Positions 4,637 through 10,015 of a stretch of 64,000 nucleotides of DNA are shown here, piece by piece (the stretch's first letter is position 1; every line of letters starts with the position of its first letter). The stretch comes from an uncultured Pelagibacteraceae bacterium. Lineage in GTDB: Bacteria > Pseudomonadota > Alphaproteobacteria > Pelagibacterales > Pelagibacteraceae. The notes beneath the pieces are model-generated. The model did not search any database, was not told the origin of the DNA, and saw only the letters and a list, made by a program, of their open reading frames with translations. The stretch is from contig CACMZL010000002.1 of assembly GCA_902618205.1 (NCBI GenBank), forward strand, positions 186,001-250,000, given 5' to 3'. Both the position numbers and the translations under genes were made by a program.

Positions 4637-5746
4637 ATGAAAAACTTTTCAATTGCAAAATCAAGAAGACTTAGAGGTACGCCTTATACATCAAGAATTG
4701 AAAAACAAGGTGTTACAGCTTACACAATATACAATCATATGTTGCTTCCTGCTGCATTTGGTTCTTTAGAAGACTCATATCATCATTTAAAAGAGCATGT
4801 TCAAGTTTGGGATGTGGCTGCTGAAAGACAAGTAGAGATTACTGGAAAAGATGCTGCAAAATTGGTTCAACTTATGACTTGTAGAGATCTTTCGAAATCA
4901 AAAGATGGAAGATGTTATTATTGTCCAATCATAGATGATAATGCTGGATTAATTAATGATCCAGTTGTTCTAAGATTTAATGAGAATAAATGGTGGGTTT
5001 CTATTGCAGATACGGATGTAATCTTATTTGCAAAAGGATTGGCAATTGGAAATAAATTTGATGTAAATATTATCGAACCCGAAGTTGACATTATGGCTGT
5101 GCAAGGGCCTAAATCATTTAAATTAATGGAAAAAGTTTTTGGTGAAAAAATAACAAATTTAAAATTTTTTGGTTTTGATTATTTTGATTTTGCTGGAGCC
5201 AAACATTTAATTGCTCAATCAGGATGGTCTAAACAAGGTGGATATGAAATATATGTAGAGAATAATGAGGCGGGTTTAAAACTATACGATCATTTATTTG
5301 AAATAGGAGATGAGTTTAATATTAGAGCAGGATGTCCTAATTTAATTGAACGTATCGAAAGTGGATTACTTTCTCAAGGAAACGATATGGACAATGCAGA
5401 CAACCCATACGAATGTGGCTTTGATAAATATATTAATATTGATAGTGATGTTGAATTTCTAGGAAAAGAGAAATTGAAAAAAATAAAGTCTGAAGGAATT
5501 AAAAGAAAACTAATGGGCGTTAAAATTGATACTGATAAAATAAGCGTAACTGGTTCAATGAATTTAACAGATGAAAAAAATAATATAATCGGAGAACTAA
5601 GATCAGGTTGTTACAATCCAACTTTTAAACAGGTAATTGGTATAGCTATGATAAAAAAACCATATTTTGAAGCAAAGCAAACATTCAAAATTGATATAAA
5701 TGGTAATAGTTTTAACGGAACAGTTTGCGATTTACCTTTCATTTAG
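4637..5746 (+). CDS. dmdA: Tetrahydrofolate-dependent dimethylsulfoniopropionate demethylase
   Basis: Moves one methyl group from DMSP to tetrahydrofolate, giving 3-methylmercaptopropionate and 5-methyl-THF, the committed step of the assimilatory DMSP route. The 369-residue protein is a GcvT relative (GCV_T fold, then a C-terminal barrel from about residue 280). I recognise it as DmdA rather than glycine-cleavage T protein from its N-terminal [13 protein letters not shown], the [12 protein letters not shown] segment, [17 protein letters not shown], and the adjoining CoA ligase and dehydrogenase genes. It starts after a 65-base gap and may have its own promoter, but I see no convincing -35/-10 pair there. 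DmdA is characteristic of SAR11 and Rhodobacteraceae. Confidence 0.93.
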
Positions 5747-5760
5747 TATAAATCTTTAAA

Positions 5761-6771
5761 ATGACTAATATAGCTATCATCGGTGCAACCGGTAATGTTG
5801 GAAGAAAGACACTAGAAGTTATAGAAAAAAAGGATATTAAATTTAATAACCTTTTTTTAGTAGCTTCTTCTAATAGTGCTGGAAAAAAAATAAGTTTTAA
5901 GGGCAAAGATTATGAAGTCCACGATCTTGAAAAATATGATTTTTCAAATGCAAATATAACTTTTTTTGCAGCAGGTGGTAAAATTGCAGAACAATATGCA
6001 GAAAGTGCAGCAAAATTAACAACTGTAATTGATAATTCTAGTTTTTTTAGAATGGATCCTGACGTTCCACTTATTGTACCTCAAGTGAACGCAGAAAAAA
6101 TTAATGAAATGAAAAAAAATATTGTGGCAAATCCTAACTGCTCAACAGCTCAGTTAGTATTAGCTCTTAAACCTTTACATGATTTATATAAAATAAAAAG
6201 AGTAATAGTTTCCACCTATCAATCTGTTTCTGGAGGCGGAAAAGCACCTATGGATGAATTGATTGAACAAACTAAATCTTATCTTAATGGAAATTCTGTT
6301 GAATCTAAAAATTTTACTAAACAAATAGCTTTCAATATCATTCCTCACATTGATGTTTTTTCGGATGATGGATACACAAAAGAAGAATTAAAAATGACTA
6401 ATGAAACAAAAAAAATACTGGACAATAATATAGAGCTAACAGCTACGTGCGTTAGAATTCCTGTTCTTGTATCACATTCAGAGTCGGTAAATATAGAGTT
6501 TGAAAATCCTTATTCTCTAGAACAAATCAGAGAAGCATTAAATAATGCTGATGGTTGTAGCGTTATAGATAAAAGAGAAAATGGAGGATATAGTACACCA
6601 ATAGAAGCAACTGGTAGTGATGAAACATTTATCTCAAGAATTAGAGATGATAAAACAAAAGAGAATTCAATTAATTTGTGGATCGTTTCAGATAACCTAT
6701 TAAGAGGCGCCGCATTAAATTCTGTTGAAATTGCAGAAACAATAATGAAAGCAAATCAAAATGGAAAATAA
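5761..6771 (+). CDS. asd: Aspartate-semialdehyde dehydrogenase
   Basis: Reduces aspartyl-4-phosphate to aspartate semialdehyde with NADPH, feeding lysine/diaminopimelate, threonine and methionine synthesis. The 336-residue protein begins with a Rossmann motif (IIGATGNVGRKTLEVI). It carries the active-site cysteine in NPNCSTAQLVLALKPL (Cys127), the STYQSVSGGGKAPMDEL region, and the catalytic histidine in RIPVLVSHSESVNIEF. The 3' end overlaps sdhC by 11 bases, so it probably leads the sdh transcript. Confidence 0.95.
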   Translation: MTNIAIIGATGNVGRKTLEVIEKKDIKFNNLFLVASSNSAGKKISFKGKDYEVHDLEKYDFSNANITFFAAGGKIAEQYAESAAKLTTVIDNSSFFRMDPDVPLIVPQVNAEKINEMKKNIVANPNCSTAQLVLALKPLHDLYKIKRVIVSTYQSVSGGGKAPMDELIEQTKSYLNGNSVESKNFTKQIAFNIIPHIDVFSDDGYTKEELKMTNETKKILDNNIELTATCVRIPVLVSHSESVNIEFENPYSLEQIREALNNADGCSVIDKRENGGYSTPIEATGSDETFISRIRDDKTKENSINLWIVSDNLLRGAALNSVEIAETIMKANQNGK

Positions 6772-7141
6772 TCCTTTATCTCCTCATATTCAAATTTATA
6801 GATGGCATGTATCATCTTTAGTTTCAATATCTCATAGAATTACAGGAATAATAAATATATTAGCAATAACTTTAATTTGTATCTTTTTTATTTTTTTTTC
6901 ATTTAGTGAAGGAAGTCATGAATTTATAAAATTATTCCTCCAATCTATTATTGGAAAATTTTTCATATTGGGTCTTACATGGTCTTTTAGTTTTCAAATC
7001 TTAAGTGAGATAAGACATTTAATAATGGATTTTGGTTATGGATTTGAATTAAAAACTACAAAGATTACTGGCTTGATTGTAATATTTGGATCTTTTGTAT
7101 TAACCGTTTCAATTTATTTAATAGGAAGAAATTTATTGTAA
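6761..7141 (+). CDS. sdhC: Succinate dehydrogenase cytochrome b556-type membrane anchor SdhC, lacking the heme-ligand histidine
   Basis: One of two membrane anchors of complex II that pass electrons to ubiquinone. The 126-residue protein has three hydrophobic helices (about 30-48, 62-82, 100-122) and the N-terminal signature RPLSPH-like SPHIQIYRWHVSS plus SISHRITG, keeping the quinone-site Ser22 and Arg26 (E. coli Ser27/Arg31). EIRHLIMDFG matches E. coli GIRHMMMDFG. Seven residues before that histidine, where E. coli has axial heme ligand His84, this protein has Gln79 (codon 6995-6997). It overlaps asd by 11 bases and sdhD by one. Confidence 0.92.
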   Translation: MENNPLSPHIQIYRWHVSSLVSISHRITGIINILAITLICIFFIFFSFSEGSHEFIKLFLQSIIGKFFILGLTWSFSFQILSEIRHLIMDFGYGFELKTTKITGLIVIFGSFVLTVSIYLIGRNLL

Positions 7142-7470
7142 TGAGAGCAGTAACAAAAAAGTGGGTATTTCTAAAAGTGAGTTCTCTCATATTAGTACCT
7201 TTGATGTTATGGTTTGCTTTAAATTTGGTTAGTATTTACGATAAAAGTTACTTAGAGATATTAACTTTTCTAACTTCTCAACCTTCAAAGTTCATATTTA
7301 GTCTTTTTCTTATTTTTGCTTACTTTTTCTCGGCATTAAGCATAAGGGAGGTTTTTGAAGACTATATTAAGGACGAAAAAATCAAAAATGCCGCAAACAA
7401 AGCTTTAAATTTTTTTGCTATAACAATTCCTTTAATTACAATATTTTCGGTATTTAAACTAACTATATGA
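7141..7470 (+). CDS. sdhD: Succinate dehydrogenase membrane anchor SdhD, with no histidine or cysteine
   Basis: Second complex II anchor, recognised by size (109 residues), three hydrophobic helices (about 13-32, 51-68, 88-107), position between sdhC and sdhA, and the quinone-site DY pair (Asp74-Tyr75, E. coli Asp82-Tyr83) in [14 protein letters not shown]. Eleven residues before that Asp, where E. coli has axial heme ligand His71, there is Phe63 (codon 7327-7329). The whole protein contains no His and no Cys, so the Cys ligand reported for yeast Sdh4 is not available either. It overlaps sdhC by one base and sdhA by four. Confidence 0.88.
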
Positions 7471-9242
7471 AATCTTATAATATTATAGATCATGAATACG
7501 ATGTCGTTGTGCTTGGTGCTGGAGGTTCTGGCCTAAGAGCTGCAGTTGGCTTAAGTGAAGCTGGATTAAAAACTGCATGCATTTCTAAAGTCTTTCCAAC
7601 TAGAAGTCATACATCAGCTGCCCAAGGTGGAATTTCAGCAGCCCTTGGAAATATGGGAGAAGATGATTGGCGTTGGCATATGTACGATACTGTAAAAGGA
7701 GCAGATTGGTTAGGCGATCAAGATAGTATTGAATATTTGTGTAAGGAAGCTCCAAAAGCAGTATTAGAATTAGAAAAGTATGGTGTTCCTTTTAGCAGAA
7801 CTGAAGACGGAAAAATTTATCAAAGACCATTTGGAGGAATGACAAAAAATTATGGAAATGGAATTGTACAAAGAACTTGTGCTGCAGCAGACAGAACTGG
7901 TCATGCAATTCTTCATACATTGTATGGTCAAGCACTTAAACATAACACAGAATTTTTTATAGAATATTTTGCATTAGATTTAATTATGAAAGATGGACAA
8001 TGCAAAGGTTTAATAGCTTGGAATTTAAATGACGGAACTATTCATCGTTTTAGATCTCACATAACAATTATAGCCACAGGGGGATATGGGAAAGTGTATT
8101 ACTCAGCAACATCCGCACATACTTGTACTGGTGATGGTAATGCAATGGTATTAAGAGCTGGATTACCTCTTCAAGATATGGAGTTTGTACAATTTCACCC
8201 AACAGGAATATATGGACATGGAACACTTATTTCTGAAGGTGTAAGAGGTGAAGGTGGATATTTGGTAAACTCTAAAGGTGAAAGATTTATGGAGAGATAT
8301 GCTCCCAACGCTAAAGATCTTGCATCAAGAGATGTAGTTAGCAGATCAATGTCAATTGAAATAAATGAGGGAAGAGGTGTTGGTAAAGATCAAGACCATG
8401 TTCATTTGTATTTAAGTCATTTAGATAAAAAAGTTATTGAAGATAGATTGCCAGGAATTACAGAAGCAGCAAGATTATTTGCAAATGTAGATGTAACTAA
8501 AGAACCAATACCAGTTGTTCCAACAGTTCATTATAATATGGGCGGTATACCAACAAATTATAAAGCTGAAGTTTTAACAGTAAATGGGTCTCAAAAAACA
8601 GTCCCAGGTTTGATGGCGATTGGTGAGGCTGCGTGCGTATCTGTTCATGGAGCAAATAGATTAGGTTCAAATTCACTTATTGACTTGGTTGTTTTTGGAA
8701 GAGCTGCAGCTAAGAGAGCAGCGGAATTAGTAAAACCTGGTACGCCTCACGAAGAAGTTAGTGAAAGCGAAACTGAAAAATGTCTAAATAGATTTGATAA
8801 ACTAAGGTATGCAGAGGGAGATAACGGAACCGCCGAACTTAGACTGGCGATGCAAAAAACAATGCAGTCTAAATGTGCTGTATTTAGAACTGAAAAGAAT
8901 CTTAAAGAGGGTGTGGATGAGATCAGAAAAACTTATGACGGCATGGAGTCGATTTCTGTTAAAGATAAATCATTGGTATTCAATACTGATTTAGTTGAGA
9001 CTTTAGAGTTTGATAATTTAATTAGACAAGCGATAACAACTGTAGATTCTGCATATCACAGAAAAGAAAGCAGAGGAGCTCATGCTCGTGAAGATTATCC
9101 GAAAAGAAATGACGAGAAATTTATGAAACATACATTATCTTGGTGTGATGGAAAAAATACTAAAATTGAATACAGAGATGTACATACTTCAACATTAACA
9201 AATGAAGTCCAATATTTTCCTCCACAAGAAAGAGTGTATTAA
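7467..9242 (+). CDS. sdhA: Succinate dehydrogenase flavoprotein subunit
   Basis: Oxidises succinate to fumarate and passes electrons to SdhB. The 591-residue protein has the FAD dinucleotide fold ([21 protein letters not shown]), covalent FAD attachment histidine in SHTSAAQGG (His48), the substrate segment [19 protein letters not shown]-type residues in [22 protein letters not shown], and the second FAD motif [17 protein letters not shown]. The C-terminal segment [18 protein letters not shown] is typical of SdhA rather than fumarate reductase. It ends one base into sdhB. Confidence 0.98.
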
Positions 9243-10015
9243 TGGTTCAATTAAATTTACCACAAAACTCAAAAGTTAATAAAGGTAAATATTTTAAAGA
9301 CAAAACCGGTTCAAAGAATATCAGAAAAGTAAATGTTTACAGATGGGATCCATCAACTGGAGAGAACCCAAGAATAGACACATATGAAGTAGACATGGAT
9401 AATTGTCCATCTAAAGTTTTAGACATACTAAATAAAATTAAAAACGAAATTGATCCAACACTTGCATATAGAAGATCTTGTGCGCATGGAGTTTGTGGTT
9501 CTTGTGCAATGAATATGGGTGGAAAAAATGGTCTTGCATGTACTAAGCCACATGCAGAAATTAAGGGAGATATAGATATATACCCTTTGCCTCACTTAAA
9601 AGTAAAAAAAGATTTAATAGGAGACTTAAGTGGATTATATAAACAATACCAATCCATTGAACCTTGGTTAAAAAATAATTCAAAAAGTGAAACAACAGAA
9701 ATTCATCAATCTCCAGAAGATAGAGCTAAACTTGATGGAGCTTATGAATGTATAATGTGTGCTTGTTGTTCTACTTCATGTCCTAGTTATTGGTGGAATG
9801 GCGATAAGTATTTAGGTCCTGCAGTTTTATTACAAGCTTATAGATGGATAATGGATAGCAGAGACGAAGATAGAAAGGAAAGACTTCAAAAGGTTGCAGA
9901 TGAACTTAAGCTTTATAGATGCCACACGATTTTGAACTGCACTAACGCATGTCCAAAAGGATTAAATCCAGCAAAAGCTATTGCTGAGATAAAGAAAATG
10001 CTTGCAACCACATAA
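9242..10015 (+). CDS. sdhB: Succinate dehydrogenase iron-sulfur subunit
   Basis: Relays electrons from FAD to quinone. Three clusters are visible in order in the 257-residue protein: [2Fe-2S] in [14 protein letters not shown] with the later Cys of GLAC, [4Fe-4S] in [13 protein letters not shown], and [3Fe-4S] in [14 protein letters not shown]. The quinone-site Pro and Trp after the second motif (CPSYWWNG) and the histidine of CHTILNC are kept. That shows the quinone pocket is preserved even though the anchors lack heme ligands. It is the last gene of sdhCDAB, with mmsA 20 bases downstream. Confidence 0.98.

Follow-up and report, generated by a model that had tools for sequence, protein, structure and literature searches.

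The succinate dehydrogenase operon of an uncultured Pelagibacteraceae bacterium raises the question of whether a complex II that has lost both axial histidines of heme b still holds the heme, and what has taken its place if not. By the window we mean the whole stretch of DNA that was analyzed, 64,000 nucleotides in length. The genes sdhC-sdhD-sdhA-sdhB occupy positions 6761-10015 of the window in frames that overlap end to start and are all open, downstream of a frame (4637-5746) that we take to resemble the SAR11 DMSP demethylase DmdA.

The sdhCDAB operon and its heme-ligand positions

The four genes were assigned as follows:

6761..7141, + strand: sdhC, cytochrome b556-type membrane anchor, 126 aa (TIGR02970 110.9 bits, cut-off 52.3; PF01127 92.8 bits)
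7141..7470, + strand: sdhD, membrane anchor, 109 aa, free of His and Cys (TIGR02968 50.6 bits, cut-off 41.8)
7467..9242, + strand: sdhA, flavoprotein (TIGR01816 958.8 bits, cut-off 727.35)
9242..10015, + strand: sdhB, iron-sulfur subunit (CPSYWW and RCHTILNC motifs kept)

SdhA keeps its FAD-His motif (HTSAAQGG at residue 48). Both anchors passed the Pfam PF01127 cut-off as well as those of their own TIGR families, which together with the SdhD model described below places them among the type C anchors, a family with three helices per subunit. A class D fumarate reductase was rejected, with SdhC scoring 15.3 bits against PF02313 (FrdD; cut-off 25) and no Frd family listed for SdhD, as was a second Sdh copy, only one sdhC and one sdhD being found in the source genome (1.376 Mb, 28 contigs, 97% complete). 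Judged from its sequence, the complex is type C by subunits, fold and quinone site, with the bis-His feature absent: where type C enzymes have one axial histidine per anchor, Gln79 and Phe63 are found. The residues concerned are:

6824..6838, + strand: SdhC Ser22, His25 and Arg26, kept (E. coli Ser27, His30 and Arg31; alignment)
6995..6997, + strand: SdhC Gln79 (CAA), where E. coli has heme ligand His84 (alignment)
7007..7009, + strand: SdhC Glu83 (GAG), corresponding to Gly88 (ligand +4; alignment)
7174..7176, + strand: SdhD Lys12, at the place of Arg20, putative partner of SdhC Glu83 (alignment and superposition)
7327..7329, + strand: SdhD Phe63 (TTC), where E. coli has heme ligand His71 (alignment and SdhD superposition)
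7339..7341, + strand: SdhD Ser67 (AGC), corresponding to Gly75 (ligand +4; alignment and superposition)
7360..7365, + strand: SdhD Asp74-Tyr75, quinone site, kept (E. coli Asp82-Tyr83; alignment and superposition)

An earlier note on this DNA had put Gln79 of SdhC at E. coli His84 and Phe63 of SdhD at His71; alignment with the E. coli proteins bore out both, the second also by gapless structural superposition. Its statements that SdhD contains neither His nor Cys and that the quinone residues are intact agreed with what we counted and found, SdhC Ser22 and Arg26, SdhD Asp74-Tyr75 and both SdhB motifs all being present. SdhC further retains the histidine that faces the heme ring, His25 (E. coli His30), and His86 (E. 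coli His91).

These assignments depend on the register of the alignment, and some observations invite the suspicion that it is off, that another pair of histidines lines the pocket or that the genes are broken or misassembled. A PDB sequence search with SdhD alone found no chain, and the best Foldseek E-value for the SdhD model was only 7.7e-3. Against this, the SdhD model (mean pLDDT 91.3) superposed without gaps on E. coli SdhD (2wdq), residues 3-107 on 11-115, over 105 residues at 1.7 A with a Z of 13.6; values up to ~13 can arise by chance for helical bundles, as the tool warns, and the top rows were complex II anchors. The superposition makes Phe63 equivalent to His71, Ser67 to Gly75, Lys12 to Arg20 and Asp74 to Asp82, and the profile of SdhD matched E. 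coli SdhD with an E-value of 7e-7. The SdhC model built from the single sequence was poor (pLDDT 74) and was not used. Moreover, SdhD has no histidine whatever to offer, the frames are open and the Gln/Phe pair recurs in 62 of the 72 genomes of the genus, with Gln at the SdhC place in 72/72, so neither chance nor sequencing error accounts for it. As far as sequence can tell, no alternative His pair at the pocket is supported, and we regard an error of register or assembly as extremely improbable.

Axial histidines across the order and their probable stepwise loss

The earlier note had proposed mapping the histidines over SAR11 and other alphaproteobacteria, and the map showed a loss that is fixed in the window's genus as sampled and a neighboring clade that keeps both ligands. 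Among 148 genomes of the order, 132 had an Sdh_cyt match and 16 had no anchor-family match; anchor pairs were read from 111, the window's included. One of these (L009) has its SdhD cut by the contig end and was left out, giving 10 complete two-His pairs in the order. From the counts as a whole, duplicates (L001, L002, L149, L150, L151) and loci with no usable pair (L147, L148) were excluded. L147 and L151 come from a genome of 0.9 Mb (G298) in which two Sdh_cyt matches share one 224-aa frame, perhaps a fused SdhC and SdhD.

Both ligands were missing in 71 of the 111 pairs (the cut pair L009 included in the denominator). In the window's genus (g1, n=72) the residues at the SdhC/SdhD places were Gln/Phe in 62 genomes, Gln/Tyr in 7 and Gln/His in 3; the SdhC histidine was thus absent in 72/72 and both histidines in 69/72. 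Genus g5 had 8 His/Phe and 2 Gln/Phe genomes and g6 a single His/Phe, while g2, g3 and g4 were His/His in 8/8. A second family (f2) was Tyr/His in 17/17 genomes of g7 and g9 (L054, L061, L065 and 14 more: SdhC Tyr, SdhD His kept) and His/His in g8. In these Tyr/His genomes, SdhC Gly88 is replaced by Cys (14) or Ser (3).

A set of named loci extended this picture; it comprises 80 of 584 relatives, which had been ranked by how closely they resemble a two-His query. Its proportions therefore carry a bias, and some of its loci duplicate genomes already in the order set. The losing clade takes in Pelagibacteraceae, Candidatus Pelagibacter ubique (L221) and SAR11 loci (L242, L250), L250 being identical in SdhA+SdhB to a g1 genome. 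The neighboring clade with HIMB114 (L193; also L197, SCGC AAA028-D10, presumably an LD12 cell) differs in keeping both ligands and both of the glycines discussed below. We take the two-His and the losing clades to be SAR11 subclades III and I. Within the losing clade, L077 (G112) has Gln at the place of SdhC His91 and L083 (G015) has Thr at the place of His30.

On an SdhA+SdhB tree of 144 rows, g1, g5 and g6 formed one group with support 100; on the SdhA+SdhB tree that includes the named loci, the HIMB114 clade adjoined the losing clade. When the two-His loci L199, L205 and L213 were added, the fork between them and the genomes with Glu at SdhC Gly88 (Glu88) received no clear support; holding the Glu88 rows together gave a slightly better tree (p-AU 0.544). 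A single clade of the f2 Tyr/His genomes was not rejected (p 0.337), which leaves one or two losses in that family. By parsimony on these trees, loss of the ligands looks stepwise, with SdhD first: in the ancestor of g1, g5 and g6, the SdhD histidine would have become Phe while Glu replaced SdhC Gly88, Ser or Thr replaced SdhD Gly75 and Lys replaced Arg20; the SdhC histidine would then have become Gln in g1 and, independently, in two genomes of g5. The three Gln/His genomes (L080, L088 and L108; G102, G094 and G074), which have an SdhD histidine in an otherwise heme-free context, sit among Gln/Tyr ones on the SdhA+SdhB tree and may represent a return of His, perhaps from Tyr.

Glycines next to the lost ligands

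What the earlier note said of the ligand losses stands; it left unmentioned that the glycines four residues beyond the ligands have changed with them. In g1, g5 and g6, the SdhC Gly88 place held Glu in 83/83 rows, compared with 0/8 in g2, g3 and g4; in the same 83 rows, the SdhD Gly75 place held Ser (62), Thr (20) or Asn (1) and the Arg20 place Lys (81) or Arg (2). All 8 genomes of g2-g4 had Gly, Gly and Arg at these three places, respectively. The 80 named loci gave the same division, SdhC Glu88 being found in 69/69 with a lost ligand and 0/11 two-His pairs. SdhD Gly75 was already Ser in 2 of those 11 two-His pairs, L205 (AG-439-C13) and L213 (AG-464-B04), so this glycine can go while both histidines stay, and both loci, placed close to where the losing clade begins, are possible intermediates. 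Two-His proteins, too, commonly have Lys or Arg at the Arg20 place. Judged by eye over 21 columns, SdhD changes at the E. coli heme-contact positions V19, R20, A23 and H71 were fixed.

The same coupling was found in the class outside the order. There, 152 genomes had a TIGR02968 match, and 151 of them plus G203 were read, giving 151 complete pairs once L341 (SdhC cut) was left out; of 39 class genomes that were re-searched, 33 were without any Sdh_cyt match, so very divergent or absent anchors lie outside these counts. Both glycines were kept in 146/146 His/His pairs, and all five ligand-losing pairs had lost a +4 glycine, 4/5 to Glu. The losers are G203 (Tyr/Val), G246, G222 and G268 (Tyr/His) and G275 (His/Tyr); the Glu of the four sits in SdhD, and G246 has a Glu in SdhC as well. 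G203 had no TIGR02968 match and G246 a weak one, their SdhD being found by eye 3' of sdhC and registered by the Asp-Tyr motif. These very divergent SdhD proteins (L145 and L146, respectively) have Glu at the Gly75 place, and Tyr stands at the SdhC His91 place in both loci.

Counting genomes with relatedness ignored, Fisher's test in the class outside the order gave 1.6e-9 for loss of any such glycine and 2.4e-7 for Glu. On the SdhA tree, the five class losers lie apart, each beside two-His relatives, on forks with support of 82 to 95, mostly without high support. Independent pairs drawn on this tree had glycine loss following ligand loss in 6/6 (p 0.031) and Glu in ~3.6/6 with none the other way (p 0.125, not significant); on the other tree, the figures were 5/5 (p 0.0625) and 3/5 (p 0.25).

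The case for a probably heme-free enzyme and possible causes of the loss

Known complex II enzymes suggest what such changes could mean. In the available part of the 2026 cryo-EM report on yeast complex II (PMC13066397), the enzyme has no heme, an absence also stated from spectra; there is a direct bond between Sdh3 His156 and Sdh4 Tyr108, and the contact of a heme propionate is taken over by a salt bridge to Sdh3 Arg97 from Sdh4 Glu112, a residue that "replaces a glycine". The Cys ligand of yeast Sdh4, which the earlier note had taken care to exclude, is out of date by the same account, the Cys making no contribution. Counted from Tyr108, Glu112 lies at +4 and the conserved Tyr120 at +12, which matches the spacing of E. 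coli His71, Gly75 and Tyr83; thus, four of the class alphaproteobacteria share both residue and position with yeast, and the window clade has its Glu at the corresponding SdhC place. The window enzyme shares with that of S. cerevisiae the type C fold, the quinone site, a replaced heme ligand and the change of a ligand+4 glycine to Glu. However, yeast keeps the Sdh3 histidine and has Tyr in Sdh4, whereas the window enzyme has neither histidine; the Glu lies in Sdh4 in yeast and in SdhC here; and yeast Sdh4 has an N-terminal extension. The Tyr/His pair of f2 is a mirror image of the yeast His-Tyr pair. We did not equate yeast Sdh4 Lys73 with SdhD Lys12, the match to yeast Sdh4 being gapped.

E. 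coli SdhABCD (1NEK) resembles the window enzyme in subunits, fold, quinone residues and the equivalents of SdhB His207 and SdhC His91, the latter a heme propionate partner, but the wild-type E. coli enzyme has a bis-His heme b and both glycines. An excerpted E. coli study (PMC3290573) places SdhC His30 ~3.5 A from the heme ring, names SdhD Arg20 as the distal propionate partner and describes SdhC Arg31 and SdhD Arg20 as equivalent across the pseudo-twofold axis of the heme. It calls what heme b does in complex II ambiguous. A heme-free variant keeps significant activity and supports growth on succinate, and the isolated enzyme needs heme for stability (PMC3290573). That variant was engineered, in contrast with the natural enzyme of the window. 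Further afield, Tetrahymena complex II has strongly reduced anchors, whose place is taken in part by ciliate-specific subunits (PMC10060162, in part), and E. coli fumarate reductase (class D) has two anchor subunits with no integral membrane heme (PMC10238741, in part), although its anchors belong to families other than those of the window enzyme.

We consider it very likely that the operon encodes a working type C succinate:ubiquinone oxidoreductase without heme b, in which polar contacts between the anchors replace the heme. The earlier note's proposal that this complex II reduces quinone without heme b is thus the best reading of the locus. It is supported by the fixation of the loss in the genus as sampled, by filled glycines that recall yeast and by the same coupling elsewhere in the class, as well as by the activity and growth of the heme-free E. 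coli variant (PMC3290573). Electrons would pass from succinate to FAD, through the three SdhB iron-sulfur clusters and directly to ubiquinone at its intact site. The heme, helpful in holding the anchors together, would have given way to protein, with SdhC Glu83 and SdhD Ser67 filling the space left by the two glycines. Given the pseudo-twofold equivalence of Arg31 and Arg20 in E. coli, a contact of SdhC Glu83 with SdhD Lys12 across the interface would be predicted, most likely as a pair that mirrors the yeast Sdh3 Arg97-Sdh4 Glu112 bridge about the pseudo-twofold axis; this bridge is proposed by analogy of symmetry. Since the heme-free E. coli variant is active and the pocket here is refilled, we would expect ordinary succinate:ubiquinone reductase function to be retained. 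Single-His forms may be heme-free too, as yeast is with one histidine left.

Loss of ligands is no proof of loss of heme. Axial-ligand mutants of E. coli can retain it, according to the title of a work cited in PMC13066397, and the three g1 genomes with an SdhD histidine count against the heme-free reading. Heme b might therefore still be bound in the window enzyme through SdhC His25 or His86, in a five-coordinate state, or by packing and propionate contacts alone, and His25, Arg26 and His86 are indeed all kept. Yet neither axial residue is left, the adjoining glycines have become Glu and Ser, and the spare histidines appear dispensable in Glu88 rows, the His30 place being Thr in 3/152 and the His91 place Gln in 2/152 (order and named loci together, with some genomes counted twice). 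Yeast complex II, moreover, has one axial histidine left and no heme (PMC13066397). On this evidence, we judge retention of heme b to be improbable.

If the enzyme is to be placed anywhere, it would be in the heme-free type C subdivision called for by the yeast authors in the available text of PMC13066397: of the features of that subdivision, replacement of at least one axial histidine is found here in both anchors, and a Glu in place of the +4 glycine, the putative bridging residue, is present, but in SdhC rather than SdhD. Heme-free type C enzymes have already been reported from yeast, Tetrahymena and Perkinsus, the latter two as lacking the membrane heme (PMC13066397, in part). Our literature search, which covered mostly papers available without subscription, turned up no heme-free type C Sdh described from SAR11 or other bacteria. 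What appears new here is a natural, bacterial case with both ligands gone and a recurring signature that would predict others.

SAR11-type ocean bacteria are very abundant. We lean toward a broader view, in which heme b is easily discarded from type C complex II: reduced alphaproteobacteria would have dropped it several times, as yeast did, with the glycine one turn past an axial histidine lost each time and most often turned to Glu. The Gly-to-Glu change would then be a readable signature of heme-free enzymes, and SAR11, with its mirror-image version, would be oxidizing succinate over large parts of the ocean with no heme b. The heme-free reading also predicts which uncharacterized complex II enzymes are without heme, would replace the automatically assigned "cytochrome b556 subunit" (TIGR02970) wherever that name is inapplicable and is relevant to how much iron and heme this group of ocean bacteria needs. 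Because related natural enzymes with two axial histidines, one or none occur within one bacterial order, the role of heme b becomes directly testable.

Why the heme would have been lost is a separate matter, with odds of its own. Missing heme synthesis was dropped as a cause, the source genome encoding ferrochelatase as well as complex III cytochrome b, so that heme as such is not missing. A strict rule by which fresh or coastal water keeps the ligands and the ocean loses them was also dropped: besides HIMB114, both histidines are kept by AG-439-C13 and AG-464-B04, which we take to be open-ocean single cells. Iron saving in ocean water, which the earlier note had inferred, is a possible cause that these observations neither support nor refute. 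SAR11 iron-transport genes respond to iron in a study whose available text leaves complex II heme unmentioned (PMC11069385). We give about even chances to the alternative that heme was lost by drift during genome reduction rather than by selected iron economy. Retention of ferrochelatase and cytochrome b speaks for drift, but HIMB114 keeps both ligands on a contig of 1.24 Mb, so a small genome is not sufficient, and a change that is fixed in the genus as sampled and that brings specific replacements looks like adaptation of the protein once the heme was going. Small genomes and nutrient-poor water also co-occur, so the two causes are confounded. The class losers outside the order all had genomes of <=2.0 Mb (5/5, vs 45 of the 151 complete pairs; hypergeometric 0.002, with the small genomes picked by hand from tables and relatedness ignored), which fits reduction as well as iron economy.
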